Made by a program: the position numbers and the translations under genes
The notes under the pieces: generated by a model
What the model saw: the letters and a program-made list of their open reading frames with translations, nothing else
Database searches by the model: none
What the model was told of the DNA's origin: nothing
In this document: positions 30,310-36,819 of the stretch, in pieces
How positions within the stretch are numbered: the stretch's first letter is position 1
How the letters are laid out: the number at the start of each line of letters is the position of its first letter
Origin: Tellurirhabdus bombi
GTDB taxonomy: Bacteria; Bacteroidota; Bacteroidia; Cytophagales; Spirosomataceae
DNA length: 64,000 bases
Assembly: GCF_021484805.1 (NCBI RefSeq)
Contig: NZ_CP090557.1
Location: forward strand, 1,562,001 to 1,626,000
Reading direction: 5' to 3'

Positions 30310-33300
30310 TTAGAAATTATAGCGGGCACCAATCTGAACCTGGAAAGGATTTCCCGACGGTGAAACTACACCCGCCGTATTGACTCGGTAATTGAACTGC
30401 TGTGTTGCCTGGCTGAAAAAAGGTACTTGTTCTGTAGTAGCTGTTCTCGGAATACCCAATGCATACAGCGCCTGCGTTCCCAGCGATTTGTTAACGCCCC
30501 AAGTCCGTTTGAGCATGTTGGCAAAGTTGAATACATCGACCGATACTTCCAGATTATGGTTGCGGAACAACCGCACTTTTTTGCTAGCCCGCACGTCGAA
30601 TACACCATAGAATCCGTTGATTCCACCGTTACGCTCAGCAATTTGACCAGAGTATTGATTGATATAATCCTTGATGCTCTGGCTGGCATCAGGGTTGTCC
30701 AGAACAGCCTGTAAGCCTGTTTTAACATTGGCGGGTACATTTTCGCTGAATCGGTCGAAAATGAATGCCAAGTCATTGGTTCCCGATACGAAATCACCGT
30801 TGGTGTTACCTCCTGAAAGCAATGAGTAACGCGTTCCACCGAGGCCTGAATACCGTACGCCAACCGTAACGCCCCAGAACGAAGGCAGGGTACCGTAGAA
30901 TACTACTTTATGGCGGAAGTGGTTGTCAGAATACGTCATCTTGCTCAAATCACGCGGATCGTCTTTAACAGGTAACGATAGAGTAGCAGTATTGGCCACG
31001 TTTCCGTTGAAAGAAGTATTGTCTTTCGTATCATTCCAGGTATAGCTCATCGAAATTTCGCCATCGCGGAAATACTGGTATGTGGCATCGGCTACCACGG
31101 CAAACTGGTTTACTTTTCCTTCGCTGTTTAGCTCCAGCACGCGGCCTAGCCGTTGGCTAATCCGCCCTTGCAACCAGTCGGCAGCGCCATTATTTTCTGG
31201 AATTGTGTTGGCGGGAACGTATACACCCCGATTGCCCTCATTAGCCAGTCGGAAGAAAGGTTCGGCCACCATGTTGCGATCCACGTACATGTAGTTATTA
31301 CGCCCTAAGGTCATATAACCGGCAATACCCACTTTGAGCTTATCCGTCAGGAACCGGCTGTAAGAAAGGTTCGCTTTGTACATAATCGGTACACGCGCAT
31401 CGGGACCTGTCATGTTAATGGTAGGCAGTTGGAATGCATTCAAGGAAGGAATACTGGCGTAATTATTCCGGTACGCCGCAAAGTCAGGGGCTGGAATATT
31501 CGGAGAGCGAACATCCACCGTCGCCAGATGCTTACCATCAAAGGTAAGGTTGTTGATAATTACGTAGTTATTGATATCAGACGCAAAAATCCCCGCTCCG
31601 AACCGAATGTAATCCGTATGCCGCTCGTTTACGTCCCAGTTTAATTGCAAGCGCGGCTGTACCACAAAAGACCGAAGCTTATTGTCTGTCCGGAGGTTGA
31701 GGTCAGCCAAAACCACTTCATTCAGTGAGGTCGATGGATAGTGAGCATAATCCAGGCGTAAACCAGCCGTCATGACCAGACCAGCGCCCAAGCGGGTGCT
31801 CATTTGTCCGTAGGCACCGGCATTCAGAATGCTTCCCCGCACGGTAGGATCATCTACCAGCGGCACTTCCCGGTAATAACGGTACGGTTTTAACTGCTCG
31901 AAATTGTCTAATCCAATATAGTGAAAACGACCGTTTACCTCGCTTCCGTATAGCGAGCGCGAGTGCGTATACATCAGGTCAACTCCGAATGTATATTGAA
32001 TTTTGTCGGTATTATAATACACATTATCAACCAGTTGAAGCACATTGTTGGTGAAGCCCTCCTGCGCAAAGCGGTGGCCCCCCATCTGGATGCTGGTCGA
32101 GCGGTTCGCTCCGTTAATAGTCGAAACTACGTTCTCCACAATAGCGCGGGGGATGTTTGATTCAGGGAGTTGATCGCCCGGGCGGCTGTCCTGATACGTA
32201 TAAAGATGCTGAAGCTTCAGCTCGTTGGTAAGCCGTGGGTTCAGCGAAGTCCGTAAGGTAGCCAGCAAGCTGTTATCCTTGTTATAATCATCTCCGTACG
32301 ACTCATAAATGTTGATGGCCGTGTTGTCCGCTAAACCGAGTTTGTTGCGGTCGCTGGTAAAGTTGTTCCGGATGGTTAACAGATTCTTGCGATTGATCTG
32401 CCAGTCGAGACGGGCAAAGGCAGCATCGGAACCCCGACCTTTGTCGAAGGTGCCATACTGCTGCGTGTTGGCCACTCCGTATTTACTACGGGCAATACTT
32501 ACGTACCGATCCAGGGTTTCACGCGTTACATTAAACCGGTTTTCGTCTACAGGTGACTGAACATCAGCAATGATCAACGGGCGAGAATCCTGCTGGTGAT
32601 CCCAGACAGCAAAGAAGTGTAATTTATCCTTTATGATCGGACCACCCAAAGAGAAACCGTACTGATTGGTAGAAAAATCATTCGTTGGTACGTTGCCCCG
32701 AATATCGTACCGACTGGACAACCAGCCCGCCCGTGTATAATTAAAAGCACTACCGGTCCATTGGTTCGTACCGGCTTTGGTTACCGCGCTGACGGTTCCA
32801 CCTCCGCTACGGCCGAAAGTCACGTCGTACTGGTTCGTAACTACCTTGAATTCCCGAACGGCTTCGATGGAAATTGAATAAGGTGCCCCACTGCGGCTGG
32901 TAGTTGCTCCTGCCGATGTCGGGTTTTTGGCGTTCATCCCGTCGATGGTGTAGTTGGTAGATGAGCCCAATTGACCCGATAGGTTACCGCCCCGGCTCAG
33001 CGGCGAAAGATCCATCAGCGAGGTGAAATTCCGGCCATTGACGGGCAGCGTAGCGATTGATCGGGCCGAAATAGCCGTAGCGGCACCCAGGTATTCCGTC
33101 TTATTTTTCAGACCAGAAGCCACAACCTGAACCACCTCCAGCGACTGCGCATCTTCCTGCATAACCAAGTTTAGCCGGACGGCATCGCCCTGGTTGAGCG
33201 CATAACCGGTTCTTTTTTGTTCGCCATAACCGATAAAAGTGGCTTTGATGGTGTAAGGACCTCCCAGTGGCAATTCCTTAAAGGAGTATTCACCCTGAGC

Positions 33301-33492
33301 ATTGGTTACAGTACCGGTAGAAAAACCAGTCGATTCATTGCGTACCTGAACTGTAGCGCCGGGCAGGGGAGCCTGCTGTTTATCCGAAATAATCCCGGCA
33401 ATGGAAGCCTGGGTGGTTTGGGCCATTGTTTCGGATATCCCGAAACAAGCCAAAAGAAGCAATAAAAGCGTCGAAAATAGATTTTTTTTCAT
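30310..33492 (-). CDS. Oar-like TonB-dependent outer-membrane receptor
   Basis: A 1060-residue outer-membrane protein. The start at 33492 gives a signal peptide (MKKNLFSTLLLLLLACFGISETMAQ), 10 residues inside the open frame. A carboxypeptidase-regulatory-like domain (about 28-115, SIAGIISDKQQAPLPGATV) is followed by a TonB plug (LPVNGRNFTSLMDLSPLSRGG, TNYTIDGMNAKN). The long beta-barrel ends with an aromatic C-terminal strand VQIGARYNF. The order CarbD-plug-barrel and the GRNF motif match the Oar-like group. No SusD gene is adjacent, so it is not a typical SusC pair. The ligand is unknown. The phosphodiesterase gene follows with a 21-nt gap. Confidence 0.9.
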   Translation of the reverse strand: MKKNLFSTLLLLLLACFGISETMAQTTQASIAGIISDKQQAPLPGATVQVRNESTGFSTGTVTNAQGEYSFKELPLGGPYTIKATFIGYGEQKRTGYALNQGDAVRLNLVMQEDAQSLEVVQVVASGLKNKTEYLGAATAISARSIATLPVNGRNFTSLMDLSPLSRGGNLSGQLGSSTNYTIDGMNAKNPTSAGATTSRSGAPYSISIEAVREFKVVTNQYDVTFGRSGGGTVSAVTKAGTNQWTGSAFNYTRAGWLSSRYDIRGNVPTNDFSTNQYGFSLGGPIIKDKLHFFAVWDHQQDSRPLIIADVQSPVDENRFNVTRETLDRYVSIARSKYGVANTQQYGTFDKGRGSDAAFARLDWQINRKNLLTIRNNFTSDRNKLGLADNTAINIYESYGDDYNKDNSLLATLRTSLNPRLTNELKLQHLYTYQDSRPGDQLPESNIPRAIVENVVSTINGANRSTSIQMGGHRFAQEGFTNNVLQLVDNVYYNTDKIQYTFGVDLMYTHSRSLYGSEVNGRFHYIGLDNFEQLKPYRYYREVPLVDDPTVRGSILNAGAYGQMSTRLGAGLVMTAGLRLDYAHYPSTSLNEVVLADLNLRTDNKLRSFVVQPRLQLNWDVNERHTDYIRFGAGIFASDINNYVIINNLTFDGKHLATVDVRSPNIPAPDFAAYRNNYASIPSLNAFQLPTINMTGPDARVPIMYKANLSYSRFLTDKLKVGIAGYMTLGRNNYMYVDRNMVAEPFFRLANEGNRGVYVPANTIPENNGAADWLQGRISQRLGRVLELNSEGKVNQFAVVADATYQYFRDGEISMSYTWNDTKDNTSFNGNVANTATLSLPVKDDPRDLSKMTYSDNHFRHKVVFYGTLPSFWGVTVGVRYSGLGGTRYSLLSGGNTNGDFVSGTNDLAFIFDRFSENVPANVKTGLQAVLDNPDASQSIKDYINQYSGQIAERNGGINGFYGVFDVRASKKVRLFRNHNLEVSVDVFNFANMLKRTWGVNKSLGTQALYALGIPRTATTEQVPFFSQATQQFNYRVNTAGVVSPSGNPFQVQIGARYNF

Positions 33493-33727
33493 GAAACGGG
33501 GGTGATGAATTTCCCGCTGCAAAGAGAGCGTCGCTGCATTAATTAGATGTTACCGATCTGTTATTTATGTATCATTATTCAGGCGTAGAAAAGCCGGACA
33601 GCAGCGATTTAATAACATCTCCGTGCTTGGTAAAGTCGCTTTTTATTTGTTGGCCCCAAGTAGGTTTTATCTGGTTATGGTCGCTCTTTAATCTCTATGG
33701 AATGCTTTTTATGACTAAAATCTAAAA

Positions 33728-33778
33728 ACTGTTCACCTATATATTTTTACAGTTCACTACCTTAAACCTGTTGTTCAC
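33728..33778 (+). repeat. Three direct repeats NNNGTTCAC with exact 21-bp period
   Basis: ACTGTTCAC (33728-33736), ACAGTTCAC (33749-33757) and GTTGTTCAC (33770-33778) start exactly 21 bp apart, so each 9-bp element is separated by 12 bp. The outer copies continue as CTATAT. Two-helical-turn spacing of 9-bp repeats is the known layout of LytTR-type regulator sites; the assignment is an inference. Confidence 0.65.
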
Positions 33779-33882
33779 CTATATCTTCTGCATGGATCGT
33801 TGACGTTTTTGGAATTAAGCCGTCTTAGTAGAACTCAAAATTCTGCTCCTGGCAGACTTGTTCTATTCCAAATTCCATACAG

Positions 33883-34077
33883 ATGAAATTTATCGTTATT
33901 TATTTGCTGCGGGGGAAATACAAAATGTTACCGTGTTCTTCCAGAAATGAGGGGTTGGCTATTTTATCTGATTTGGCAACGCATGACTCAATCAACCCCC
34001 TTGCCGTATATGAACCTAGAACGGAACTAATTGACTGGTATGCTTATAGTCCGTGTCGTTTTCGCGCTGAAAGCTAA
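33883..34077 (+). CDS. Possible small ORF of unknown function
   Basis: A 64-codon open frame starting MKFIVIYLLRGKYKML, with a second ATG at codon 15. There is no signal peptide of usual form and I recognise no family. Support is indirect: it lies about 110 nt after the 21-bp repeat array and 67 nt before a hairpin-T-run that otherwise has no gene to terminate. The coding look (VYEPRTELIDWYAYSPCRFRA) is plausible but not decisive. It may equally be noncoding sequence or a gene remnant. Confidence 0.3.
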   Translation: MKFIVIYLLRGKYKMLPCSSRNEGLAILSDLATHDSINPLAVYEPRTELIDWYAYSPCRFRAES

Positions 34078-34144
34078 TTTACTCTCTCACGAGCTTCCCT
34101 TAATAAGGCCCTACTGGCGGATGCCAAATTGGTCAATACACCGT

Positions 34145-34180
34145 AAAGCAGAGCAGAATTAGTATTCTGTCTCTGCTTTT
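34145..34180 (+). terminator. Hairpin with T-run, orphan terminator candidate
   Basis: Arms AAAGCAGAGCAGAAT (34145-34159) and ATTCTGTCTCTGCTTT (34164-34179) pair with one bulged T and a 4-nt loop, followed by a T-rich tail. No recognised rightward gene precedes it. Confidence 0.6.
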
Positions 34181-34389
34181 ATTTTCTTAAAGCCTACCGT
34201 TCTGCAACTAAACATCAGCGGAATTTTCTCTTTTTACTCGCGCAACTCTTGTCCGCTTTCTTGCATCTCTCAGGCATGAGCGTTTGAATAAACCGTTATA
34301 CTCACTTGTTAAAGTGTGTTAAGACAGCGTCAGCGCTTCTTTCTGTGGTATACTTTTACCCAGAAATCCTAAACCACCAACAAATACGA

Positions 34390-36819
34390 ATGAAACAATT
34401 CTTCCTTTTACTCATGCTGGCCCTCTGGTCAGGTGGACTTCTCGCCCAATCTGACCAAGCCGGACAAATCACCGGCGTCCTTACGGACTCTACAACGTCC
34501 AAAACAATCCCTTTTGCTACCGTAGCACTCAAAGCCGATGCAAAACTCATCACAGGTACCACAACGGATGGGACCGGAGCTTTTGGGTTAACAAATCTAC
34601 CGTTAGGAAAATATCAACTGGAAATATCTTTCGTAGGCTATCGAACGAAAACAATACCGGTGGTGCTGACCAACTCAAACCCTACCCTGCGTTTAGAAAA
34701 AAATCAATTGACCCCGGAAGATAGAACGCTGGGTGAGGTAACCGTTGTGAGCCAGAAAGCATTGGTGGAGGACAAAGGCGATCGGCTGATCTACAACGCC
34801 GAAAAAGACATTTCCAACGCGGGTGGCACTGCTGCTGACGTACTACGAAAAGTGCCGACCCTGAGCGTTGATTTAAACGGAAATGTTCAAATGCGGGGAA
34901 ACAGTAACCTCAAAGTGCTGATCAATGGGAAACCGTCCGCCATGATGGCCCGTAACCTGGCCGATGCCCTGAAGCAGATGCCCGCCAATACGATCAAATC
35001 GATTGAAGTCATTACTAGTCCGGGTGCCAAGTACGACGCAGAAGGCTCGGCTGGGGTTATTAACATCATTACCAAAAAAGCCTTGCAGGGATTCAATGGT
35101 TCCGTCAATGCCACCGCCGGTAACTTTAACCGCGGCTTAGGGACTAATCTGGCGTTAAAGAAAAAGAAATGGGGGCTGTCGCTGGCTGCCAACGGCTACC
35201 AATACCGGAATATTCGGGATATACAGACAAACCGGACAACGTTGCTGGATGGAAAGCCAGTTAATATATTGTCCCAAATCAGTACGGGAGACAATACCGG
35301 GACCGGTGGCTATGGCGAGATGAGTATTGATTATGACCCCGATTCAACCAGCCGTATCAACTTTGCGGCCAATGTTTGGGGAGGGAATTTCCCAAACGAT
35401 AGCCGAGTGTTTAATAACCTGACCGATCCGGCGGGAGTTAGCTTGCAGGCGTTTCGGAATGACATTCGCTTTCGTAATCCCTATGGAAACGGACAGCTTG
35501 ATTTGGGGTATACCAAGACATTTAAGAAGCCAGAGCAGGAGTTCTCGTTCTTGACCCAATTCAGCCTGATGCCTGATAATTACTTCTACGATACAGACCG
35601 GTATTCCTTATCCGAGCAACTTTTGTTACGGCAGCATAGCACCAATTATAGCCGTAACAAGGAATATACGCTGCAAACTGATTATACCCACCCATTTACA
35701 CGGAAAGGAGCGAAAGATACCACAAGCTTTAAACTGGAAGTCGGCGCGAAGGCCATTCTGCGTGACATCGGCAGCGAATACCGGGTTGAAGAATTAAGAG
35801 ACGCTGAGAAGGGCTGGATTGTAGACCCCACTCAGGCAAATGATTTTGATTATACACAGAACGTTTACTCCGGTTACACAGCGCTACGGATGGAGACTAA
35901 AAGAAAATGGAGCCTTAACGCCGGTGCACGCTTTGAGCATACGGATATTCGAGGCAATTTTTTAACGACGAAAACGGCTCTAGCCAGTCAGTATAACAAT
36001 CTTATTCCTAGCGTAACTCTGTCCAAGGGCCTCAAAACACATACGCTGAAAGTTAGCTATACGCAACGCATTCAGCGGCCTCAAATCTGGTATCTGAATC
36101 CTTGGCTCAACGCCAGCGATCCTAAAAACCTACAGACGGGTAATCCTTACCTGGATCCGGAAGTGAGCCACGCCACAGAACTGTCTCATAGTGTAACCAC
36201 AAAAAAAGGCGTATCGATCAATTCGGCACTTTACTGGCGGCAGACGGATAATGCGATTGAGTTTCTGTCAACGGTTGATTCTACGGGTGTATCGCTTGTG
36301 AAGCCCCAAAATATAGCCCAGCGGAAAGCGTACGGACTGAACATAAATTTATCCGGGCAAATCAATAAAAACTGGACTATGAACGGCGGTAGCGATCTAC
36401 GCTATATCGATTTGTATAGTCCGGCCCTCAAACAGGGCAACAGCGGTATGATTTGGAATGTTAATTTCAATAGCACGTATAAATTGCCTAATAATTACAC
36501 CTTGCAGGCAAACGGGAGCTATGGTTCGGGCTGGATCAGCTTACAAGGGACCAATTCAGGATTTTACTGGTACGGATTCTCGGCGAAACGCGAGTTCTGG
36601 GACAAAAAAGCTAGCTTAACGTTAGGAGTAAACAATCCCTTCAGCCGGGGGATACGGCAAACGGCAACTGAATCGGCACCATCTTTTAGGAGCGAGGGCC
36701 GTTACTTCTTTGTTAACCGCTCGGCTCGCCTTACGTTCGAATGGCGATTTGGTCAGATGAATGCCGGGGGTAGCAAGCAAAGCAAGAAAATAAGCAACGA
36801 CGATAGGGGAGGCCGGTAA
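34390..36819 (+). CDS. Outer-membrane beta-barrel protein with CarbD and plug domains
   Basis: An 809-residue protein of the outer membrane beta-barrel family (OMP_b-brl_3 type). The ATG at 34390 gives a signal peptide MKQFFLLLMLALWSGGLLAQ; the open frame runs 28 residues further upstream. A carboxypeptidase-regulatory-like domain (about 27-115, ITGVLTDSTTSKTIPFATVAL) leads into a TonB plug-like segment with VLRKVPTLSVDLNGNVQMRGNSNLKVLINGKP and GSAGVINIITKK. A barrel follows with THTLKVSYTQRIQRPQIWYLNPW. Such proteins are TonB-receptor relatives of unknown ligand. The gene converges with the serine hydrolase gene, with one base between the stop codons. Confidence 0.88.
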   Translation: MKQFFLLLMLALWSGGLLAQSDQAGQITGVLTDSTTSKTIPFATVALKADAKLITGTTTDGTGAFGLTNLPLGKYQLEISFVGYRTKTIPVVLTNSNPTLRLEKNQLTPEDRTLGEVTVVSQKALVEDKGDRLIYNAEKDISNAGGTAADVLRKVPTLSVDLNGNVQMRGNSNLKVLINGKPSAMMARNLADALKQMPANTIKSIEVITSPGAKYDAEGSAGVINIITKKALQGFNGSVNATAGNFNRGLGTNLALKKKKWGLSLAANGYQYRNIRDIQTNRTTLLDGKPVNILSQISTGDNTGTGGYGEMSIDYDPDSTSRINFAANVWGGNFPNDSRVFNNLTDPAGVSLQAFRNDIRFRNPYGNGQLDLGYTKTFKKPEQEFSFLTQFSLMPDNYFYDTDRYSLSEQLLLRQHSTNYSRNKEYTLQTDYTHPFTRKGAKDTTSFKLEVGAKAILRDIGSEYRVEELRDAEKGWIVDPTQANDFDYTQNVYSGYTALRMETKRKWSLNAGARFEHTDIRGNFLTTKTALASQYNNLIPSVTLSKGLKTHTLKVSYTQRIQRPQIWYLNPWLNASDPKNLQTGNPYLDPEVSHATELSHSVTTKKGVSINSALYWRQTDNAIEFLSTVDSTGVSLVKPQNIAQRKAYGLNINLSGQINKNWTMNGGSDLRYIDLYSPALKQGNSGMIWNVNFNSTYKLPNNYTLQANGSYGSGWISLQGTNSGFYWYGFSAKREFWDKKASLTLGVNNPFSRGIRQTATESAPSFRSEGRYFFVNRSARLTFEWRFGQMNAGGSKQSKKISNDDRGGR

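Follow-up and report, generated by a model that had tools for sequence, protein, structure and literature searches.

A three-site TTCAC array in Tellurirhabdus bombi as a candidate LytTR operator, and its likeness to arrays beside related response regulators

An array of three direct repeats lies between two outer-membrane protein genes of Tellurirhabdus bombi, in a 64,000-nucleotide stretch (contig NZ_CP090557.1, positions 1,562,001 to 1,626,000; hereafter the window). We propose that it is a three-site LytTR operator, most likely one served in trans by a LytTR response regulator (RR) encoded at 3.274 Mb of the same genome, and put the probability of this reading at about 0.64. The case for an operator is well supported by layout and by likeness to LytTR-linked arrays of relatives; the RR is a moderately supported candidate for the regulator, and the predicted action of the array on a small open reading frame (ORF) at 33883 or on the outer-membrane protein gene at 34390 is weakly supported. 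Binding, the identity of the regulator and activation are what we infer from these comparisons of sequence.

The array and its spacing

The three elements are on the forward strand at 33728..33736 (ACTGTTCAC), 33749..33757 (ACAGTTCAC) and 33770..33778 (GTTGTTCAC), the second and third each starting exactly 21 bp after the one before; an earlier note on this DNA had described three 9-mers with 12-bp spacers and a 21-bp period, and that description is exact. Its proposal of GTT as the core was not borne out, the common core being TTCAC and not GTT alone (GTTCAC starts at 33731, 33752 and 33773). Copies 1 and 3 have a longer stretch in common (TGTTCACCTATATATT and TGTTCACCTATATCTT, 15 of 16 letters), and identity between the units is 9, 9 and 15 of 21. 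LytTR sites are described as pairs of 9–11-bp repeats with 11–13-bp spacers (PMC4847170, PMC2766830); the array has this layout (9 + 12 bp) in three copies.

The pair GTTCAC-N15-GTTCAC occurs in the 4.94-Mb genome only as the two overlapping pairs of the array itself. The window contains no LytTR gene, the nearest being 249 kb off. With up to 3 mismatches in the 18 letters of a GTTCAC triple there were ten places genome-wide versus one in the control; these ten include the array (exact) and one out-of-register overlap of it. By itself GTTCAC is no more frequent in the window than expected (18 copies versus 22.97), and TTCAC pairs at 21 bp are in no clear excess in the genome (15, versus 5 in the reversed control and about 10 expected).

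The array had also been called unlikely by chance. This is true of the particular core and spacing, for which 5.5e-5 GTTCAC triples and 0.01 TTCAC triples are expected per genome at 21 bp, but as a general statement it was too strong: a search for any 6-mer standing three times at an equal spacing of 9–60 bp gave one case in the window, and 4 of 20 simulated windows also had such triples (mean 0.2). The bare repeat pattern is therefore only mildly surprising, and evidence from outside the window was needed.

Surroundings and possible targets

The gene map agrees with the placement of the array between two outer-membrane protein genes and ahead of a small ORF. The gap is 897 bp long. On its upstream side is a divergent gene for an outer-membrane protein (30313..33492, reverse strand; domain matches to CarboxypepD_reg and OMP_b-brl_4); on the other side is the gene for an outer-membrane beta-barrel protein (34390..36819, forward strand; CarboxypepD_reg, Plug and OMP_b-brl_3), a possible further target. 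The small ORF (33883..34077, forward strand, 64 amino acids), a possible target, starts 105 bp past the array; it belongs to a family of proteins of about 85 amino acids that has no Pfam match, and it stops at an in-frame TAA about 20 codons before its relatives in the same genome (85–88 amino acids).

Matches to this small-ORF family were found in 78 of 222 genomes of the taxonomic family (T. bombi included), with five copies in T. bombi itself, and a Pfam search of two of the T. bombi relatives gave no match. The four paralogs lie at 3143498, 4478717, 4799801 and 3913325 of G000:C1 (the T. bombi genome), and the 7-kb loci of three of them also contain a receiver-domain gene. Among 20 loci of the family (L203–L222), triples with at most 2 core mismatches were present only in L203 and L219, that in L203 being upstream of a T. 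bombi paralog in opposite orientation; the link of the array to the small-ORF family is weak.

The array-bearing gap is not conserved across the 222 family genomes, no match covering the array: gap DNA matched in 7 of the 221 other genomes, always over a short length (six within 33508-33572, one at 33959-33979). Alignment across relatives had been set by the earlier note as a refuting test, and on this point the result went against it, since the locus is not kept and only the class of array recurs. The stretch 33508-33572 is the leader of the divergent gene; its short matches are in six genomes of four other genera, only that in G208 being strong (E 8e-11), and it is possibly a conserved promoter or RNA leader. 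A scan for sigma70-type promoters found no promoter, and a single sub-threshold Rfam match over 33400-34500 (18.3 bits versus 208) was dropped.

A response regulator whose relatives adjoin similar arrays

There are 33 LytTR domains in the T. bombi genome. One is part of a 260-amino-acid RR (receiver plus LytTR; G000:C1:3274235-3275014), encoded 1.68 Mb from the array and related to array-linked RRs of other genomes, so that a suitable regulator is present in the same genome: it is 62.6% identical to the RR of locus L284 (genome G212) and 51.7% to that of L286, the next T. bombi LytTR protein being at 30%, and its LytTR domain is 72–74% identical to those of L322–L324. Relatives at E<=1e-40 were found in 110 of the 222 family genomes (T. 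bombi included), named genera among them including Spirosoma and Fibrella.

We inspected 22 RR loci: 20 of the 29 other loci returned, plus L284 and L286, both of which had first come up through their arrays. A three-element array with at most 3 of 15 core mismatches lies within 900 bp 3' of the RR gene in 12 of them; the other 10 have no such array within that distance, L332–L334 among these having a weaker look-alike with 4–5 mismatches. These 10 include close RR relatives at L325, L326, L335 and L336 (77–79% identity), and no array was found beside the T. bombi RR gene. In keeping with a link between the two, G001, of the same genus, has no RR at 1e-40 and no TTCAC triple. In Spirosoma and Fibrella (L284, L329, L330, L337 and L338) the RR gene, a three-site array and curli-like genes stand in a row, the CsgA-type label resting on a reading of the repeats. 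Four proteins encoded after relatives' arrays, from loci whose downstream genes were covered (L331–L334 not among them), had no homologs found in the window.

The likeness of the window array to the RR-linked arrays extends beyond the 15 core letters. Over the 61-bp stretch used for comparison (33726..33786, forward strand) its best match among 514 candidate triples was the array of G210 (L323), with 27 of 46 non-core letters identical (all triples: mean 13.1, SD 3.3). This value was reached in none of 20,000 composition-keeping permutations, and the mean match to all 12 RR arrays was equalled in 65 of 20,000; true RR-linked arrays match each other at 20–37 of 46. Ranks 1, 3, 4 and 5 were taken by RR-linked arrays and rank 2 by a heptamer repeat (25 of 46, 3 core mismatches), although three of these four RR arrays are closely alike and come from a single genus, and so count for little more than one.

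On this reading the array offers three direct half-sites of 9–10 bp with the core TTCAC, which at 21-bp spacing would face the same side of the helix. By analogy with LytTR activators, phosphorylated RR would bind them cooperatively, adjacent to the −33 region, and bring in the housekeeping polymerase, with the small ORF at 33883, and perhaps also the gene at 34390 for the outer-membrane protein, as possible targets.

A −7 box at a fixed distance in relatives

The flavobacterial −7 consensus is TAnnTTTG (PMC9723704). A box TAnnTTTR, agreeing with TAnnTTTG in 5 or more of its 6 letters, stands exactly 33 bp past the last element in 12 of 12 RR-linked arrays, and at 41 other offsets together the same box was found at one locus; the box had not been used in choosing the 12 arrays, and the loci are related to each other. 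A scan of a second RR set (47 loci, array ties broken by −7 score) turned up 10 triples whose cores had no more than 3 mismatches; four of these were in the count above. Among the six new array loci the box is at +33 in L374 (Arsenicibacter rosenii) only, by reading is one base earlier in L377 and L382, and is absent in L355, L367 and L378; L388 (Agriterribacter humi), with 4 core mismatches, has the box at +33.

In the window the expected place 33 bp past the last element (33812..33819, forward strand) reads GAATTAAG, with 3 of 6 fixed letters. A weak −7-like site, CGTTTTTG (33804..33811, forward strand; 4 of 6), is one of several between the array and the small ORF, where nothing exceeds 4 of 6. 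Beside the window array no promoter was recognised at the distance seen in relatives. Operator status does not demand an adjacent promoter; activation as in the relatives would. With the −7 box missing, this copy may be a weak, a differently wired or a decaying target.

The last of these leads to the best-surviving alternative, in which the array is a decayed or relocated operator of a once working LytTR promoter and is now functionless; it has the same origin as our main reading and overlaps it, and we consider it rather unlikely. The empty +33 position, the 64-amino-acid ORF shortened by about 20 codons relative to its family and the unconserved locus are all in its favour, but decay sits poorly with three cores that are intact and exactly spaced, when most RR-linked arrays have 1–3 core mismatches.

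We put forward a broader proposal, tentatively and with less than even confidence: in the Spirosoma group a uniform three-site LytTR promoter (TTCAC three times at a 21-bp period and a −7 box exactly 33 bp further) may be a movable module through which one response regulator is shared among unrelated surface and secretion genes, with operators turning over fast between species. The genes so connected might, just as tentatively, be those for curli-like fibres, a secreted protein, a polyketide synthase and, in T. bombi, the family of about 85 amino acids and the outer-membrane protein.

Arrays of the same type and their neighbours in related genomes

TTCAC-N16-TTCAC-N16-TTCAC was found in 54 of the 222 family genomes, at 147 places versus 40 for the reversed pattern, and at order level 37 of 390 genomes had the KTTCAC triple, the raw excess there being small, with 77 places versus 55 (hand counts in both cases, and both inflated by heptamer repeats). 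Flanks were fetched for 64 loci with three TTCAC at 21 bp and checked for LytTR and Rep_3; a further two loci contained no triple. A LytTR gene lay within 3 kb in 17, a Rep_3-type initiator was present in 8 and a heptamer array in 1; 38 had none of these, and of the 38, 17 stood outside frames of 150 codons and 21 within them. With Rep_3 and heptamer loci removed, a LytTR gene was within 3 kb of 16 of 33 arrays outside such frames versus 1 of 22 inside (Fisher 7e-4), a count in which orthologous copies are not independent; when related copies were merged by hand, 5 of about 19 groups were LytTR-linked (P about 0.007). The density of LytTR genes, 569 in about 90 Mb from 14 array-bearing genomes, would put 4–7% of places within 3 kb by chance. 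These neighbours in several genera, together with the match of the window array to the RR-linked ones, support the LytTR reading of the earlier note.

The counting had the following conventions. An array is 'inside' when a stop-to-stop frame of 150 codons, whichever its strand, contains it, and some inside arrays are therefore antisense shadows; L136, the sole inside-frame array with a LytTR gene, is probably one. The LytTR count leaves out heptamer-type arrays (among others G040, G058, G066, G109, G145, G172 and G188), extra copies of counted arrays (G156, G158, G178, G187 contig 5 and G420) and G109 contig 34. Entered as unlinked were L257 and L259, longer unit runs that may be coding, and L261, L281 and L290, on contigs below 4.5 kb where 3 kb is not visible on both sides. 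LytTR was assigned by Pfam in L127, L132, L133, L136, L178, L185 and L253 and by a custom profile elsewhere; the labels curli, fasciclin, DJ-1, polyketide synthase and secreted protein come from reading the translations.

The LytTR-linked arrays are of several kinds. Group A, from the genus of G175, is a membrane LytTR cluster to which one in T. bombi (L178, 35.7% identity) is related; both have the motif GTCATTTCAC in common in 21-bp repeats, which in L178 are pairs. In group B (L127, L199) the array stands just 3' of a LytTR response regulator gene; group C has another such regulator, beyond which lie curli-like genes in L284 and a DJ-1-like gene in L286; and in group D (L133) a small LytTR gene follows the array on its 3' side after 55 bp. 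In group E the array precedes operons of a histidine kinase and a LytTR regulator (L135, L136 and L288, and L253/L254 from another family). Such operons with three TTCAC in front occur in two families; L135 and L288 are headed by a fasciclin-type lipoprotein gene, L253 by a lipoprotein-like ORF.

As the genome has 33 LytTR domains, the binder may be one other than the RR, for example a small stand-alone LytTR protein. Two arrays speak for this: that of the small LytTR gene in L133 (G183) resembles the RR operator set at 23 of 46 (5 of 1000 permutations), and at L185 in T. bombi a degenerate three-element array (2 core mismatches) lies 5' of a 106-amino-acid LytTR frame. We nevertheless think it unlikely, since the match of the window array to the RR set, 27, exceeds that of all 23 non-RR arrays compared, those other than L133 reaching 21 or less.

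Slightly less likely still is that no regulator is involved and that the array arose by chance or is left over from degenerate heptamer repeats (3 × 7 = 21 bp). TTCAC heptamer arrays are common in relatives, one being the second-ranking look-alike above, and the simulated windows show how readily some equal-spaced triple arises; by eye, however, the spacers in the window have no clear 7-bp period, the core with its spacing has the low expectation already given, and chance would not explain likeness to RR arrays beyond the cores. A remnant of plasmid iterons is highly improbable: Rep_3 plasmids of the family do have TTCAC-headed 21-bp units, and 8 of the 64 arrays adjoin a Rep_3-type initiator gene, but iteron units are near-identical over 21 bp and stand beside rep genes, whereas the window units agree at 9, 9 and 15 of 21 and do not qualify as Rep_3 iterons, the window has no Rep gene and the genome is one 4.94-Mb contig.

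Rep_3-type plasmids with such iterons were seen at L120, L121, L122, L128, L129, L130, L269 and L270. IS21/Tn7-type transposase end repeats were considered for the 21-bp TTCAC arrays and rejected, the neighbours being Rep_3 initiators or LytTR genes.

Comparison with known LytTR operators

Sites of AgrA and ComE are of the same repeat type as those of SilA, and all three differ from the window array in having two half-sites and in belonging to Firmicutes promoters. SilA-type sites share with it direct repeats of 9–10 bp and spacers of 11–12 bp (PMC2766830). Operators with three repeats are already known for RcoM1 of Paraburkholderia xenovorans and CoxC of Afipia carboxidovorans (PMC11347149), which makes the array one more of an existing type if our operator reading is right. 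There too a LytTR domain binds three directly repeated sites set about two helix turns apart; these operators differ in their repeats (TTCNNGCA / TTNNNGCN) and in that both proteins are CO-responsive and not receiver–LytTR proteins, while CoxC represses over a −35 box.

Literature searches combining LytTR with Spirosoma found nothing, and among the few papers from wider searches none concerned LytTR binding sites in this phylum, judged by titles and the opening lines of abstracts. These bacteria are very rich in LytTR domains, as the 33 in T. bombi and the 569 in 14 array-bearing relatives attest; the arrays, the fixed −7 distance and the curli-like neighbours together yield a binding rule that can be tested directly for one regulator and could serve as a model for the rest.

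The direct repeat of the E. coli YpdB site at PyhjX, GGCATTTCAT, is close to the motif of the L178 array in T. bombi; its half-site length is similar to that of the window array, but it has two half-sites and an E. coli promoter (PMC4847170). Autocorrelation of 36 kb of non-coding DNA beside the LytTR genes of T. bombi had its highest value at lag 21 (17, against a mean of about 7.7 over 53 lags), followed by lags 51, 30 and 42 (15, 14 and 13), a peak that is suggestive only.
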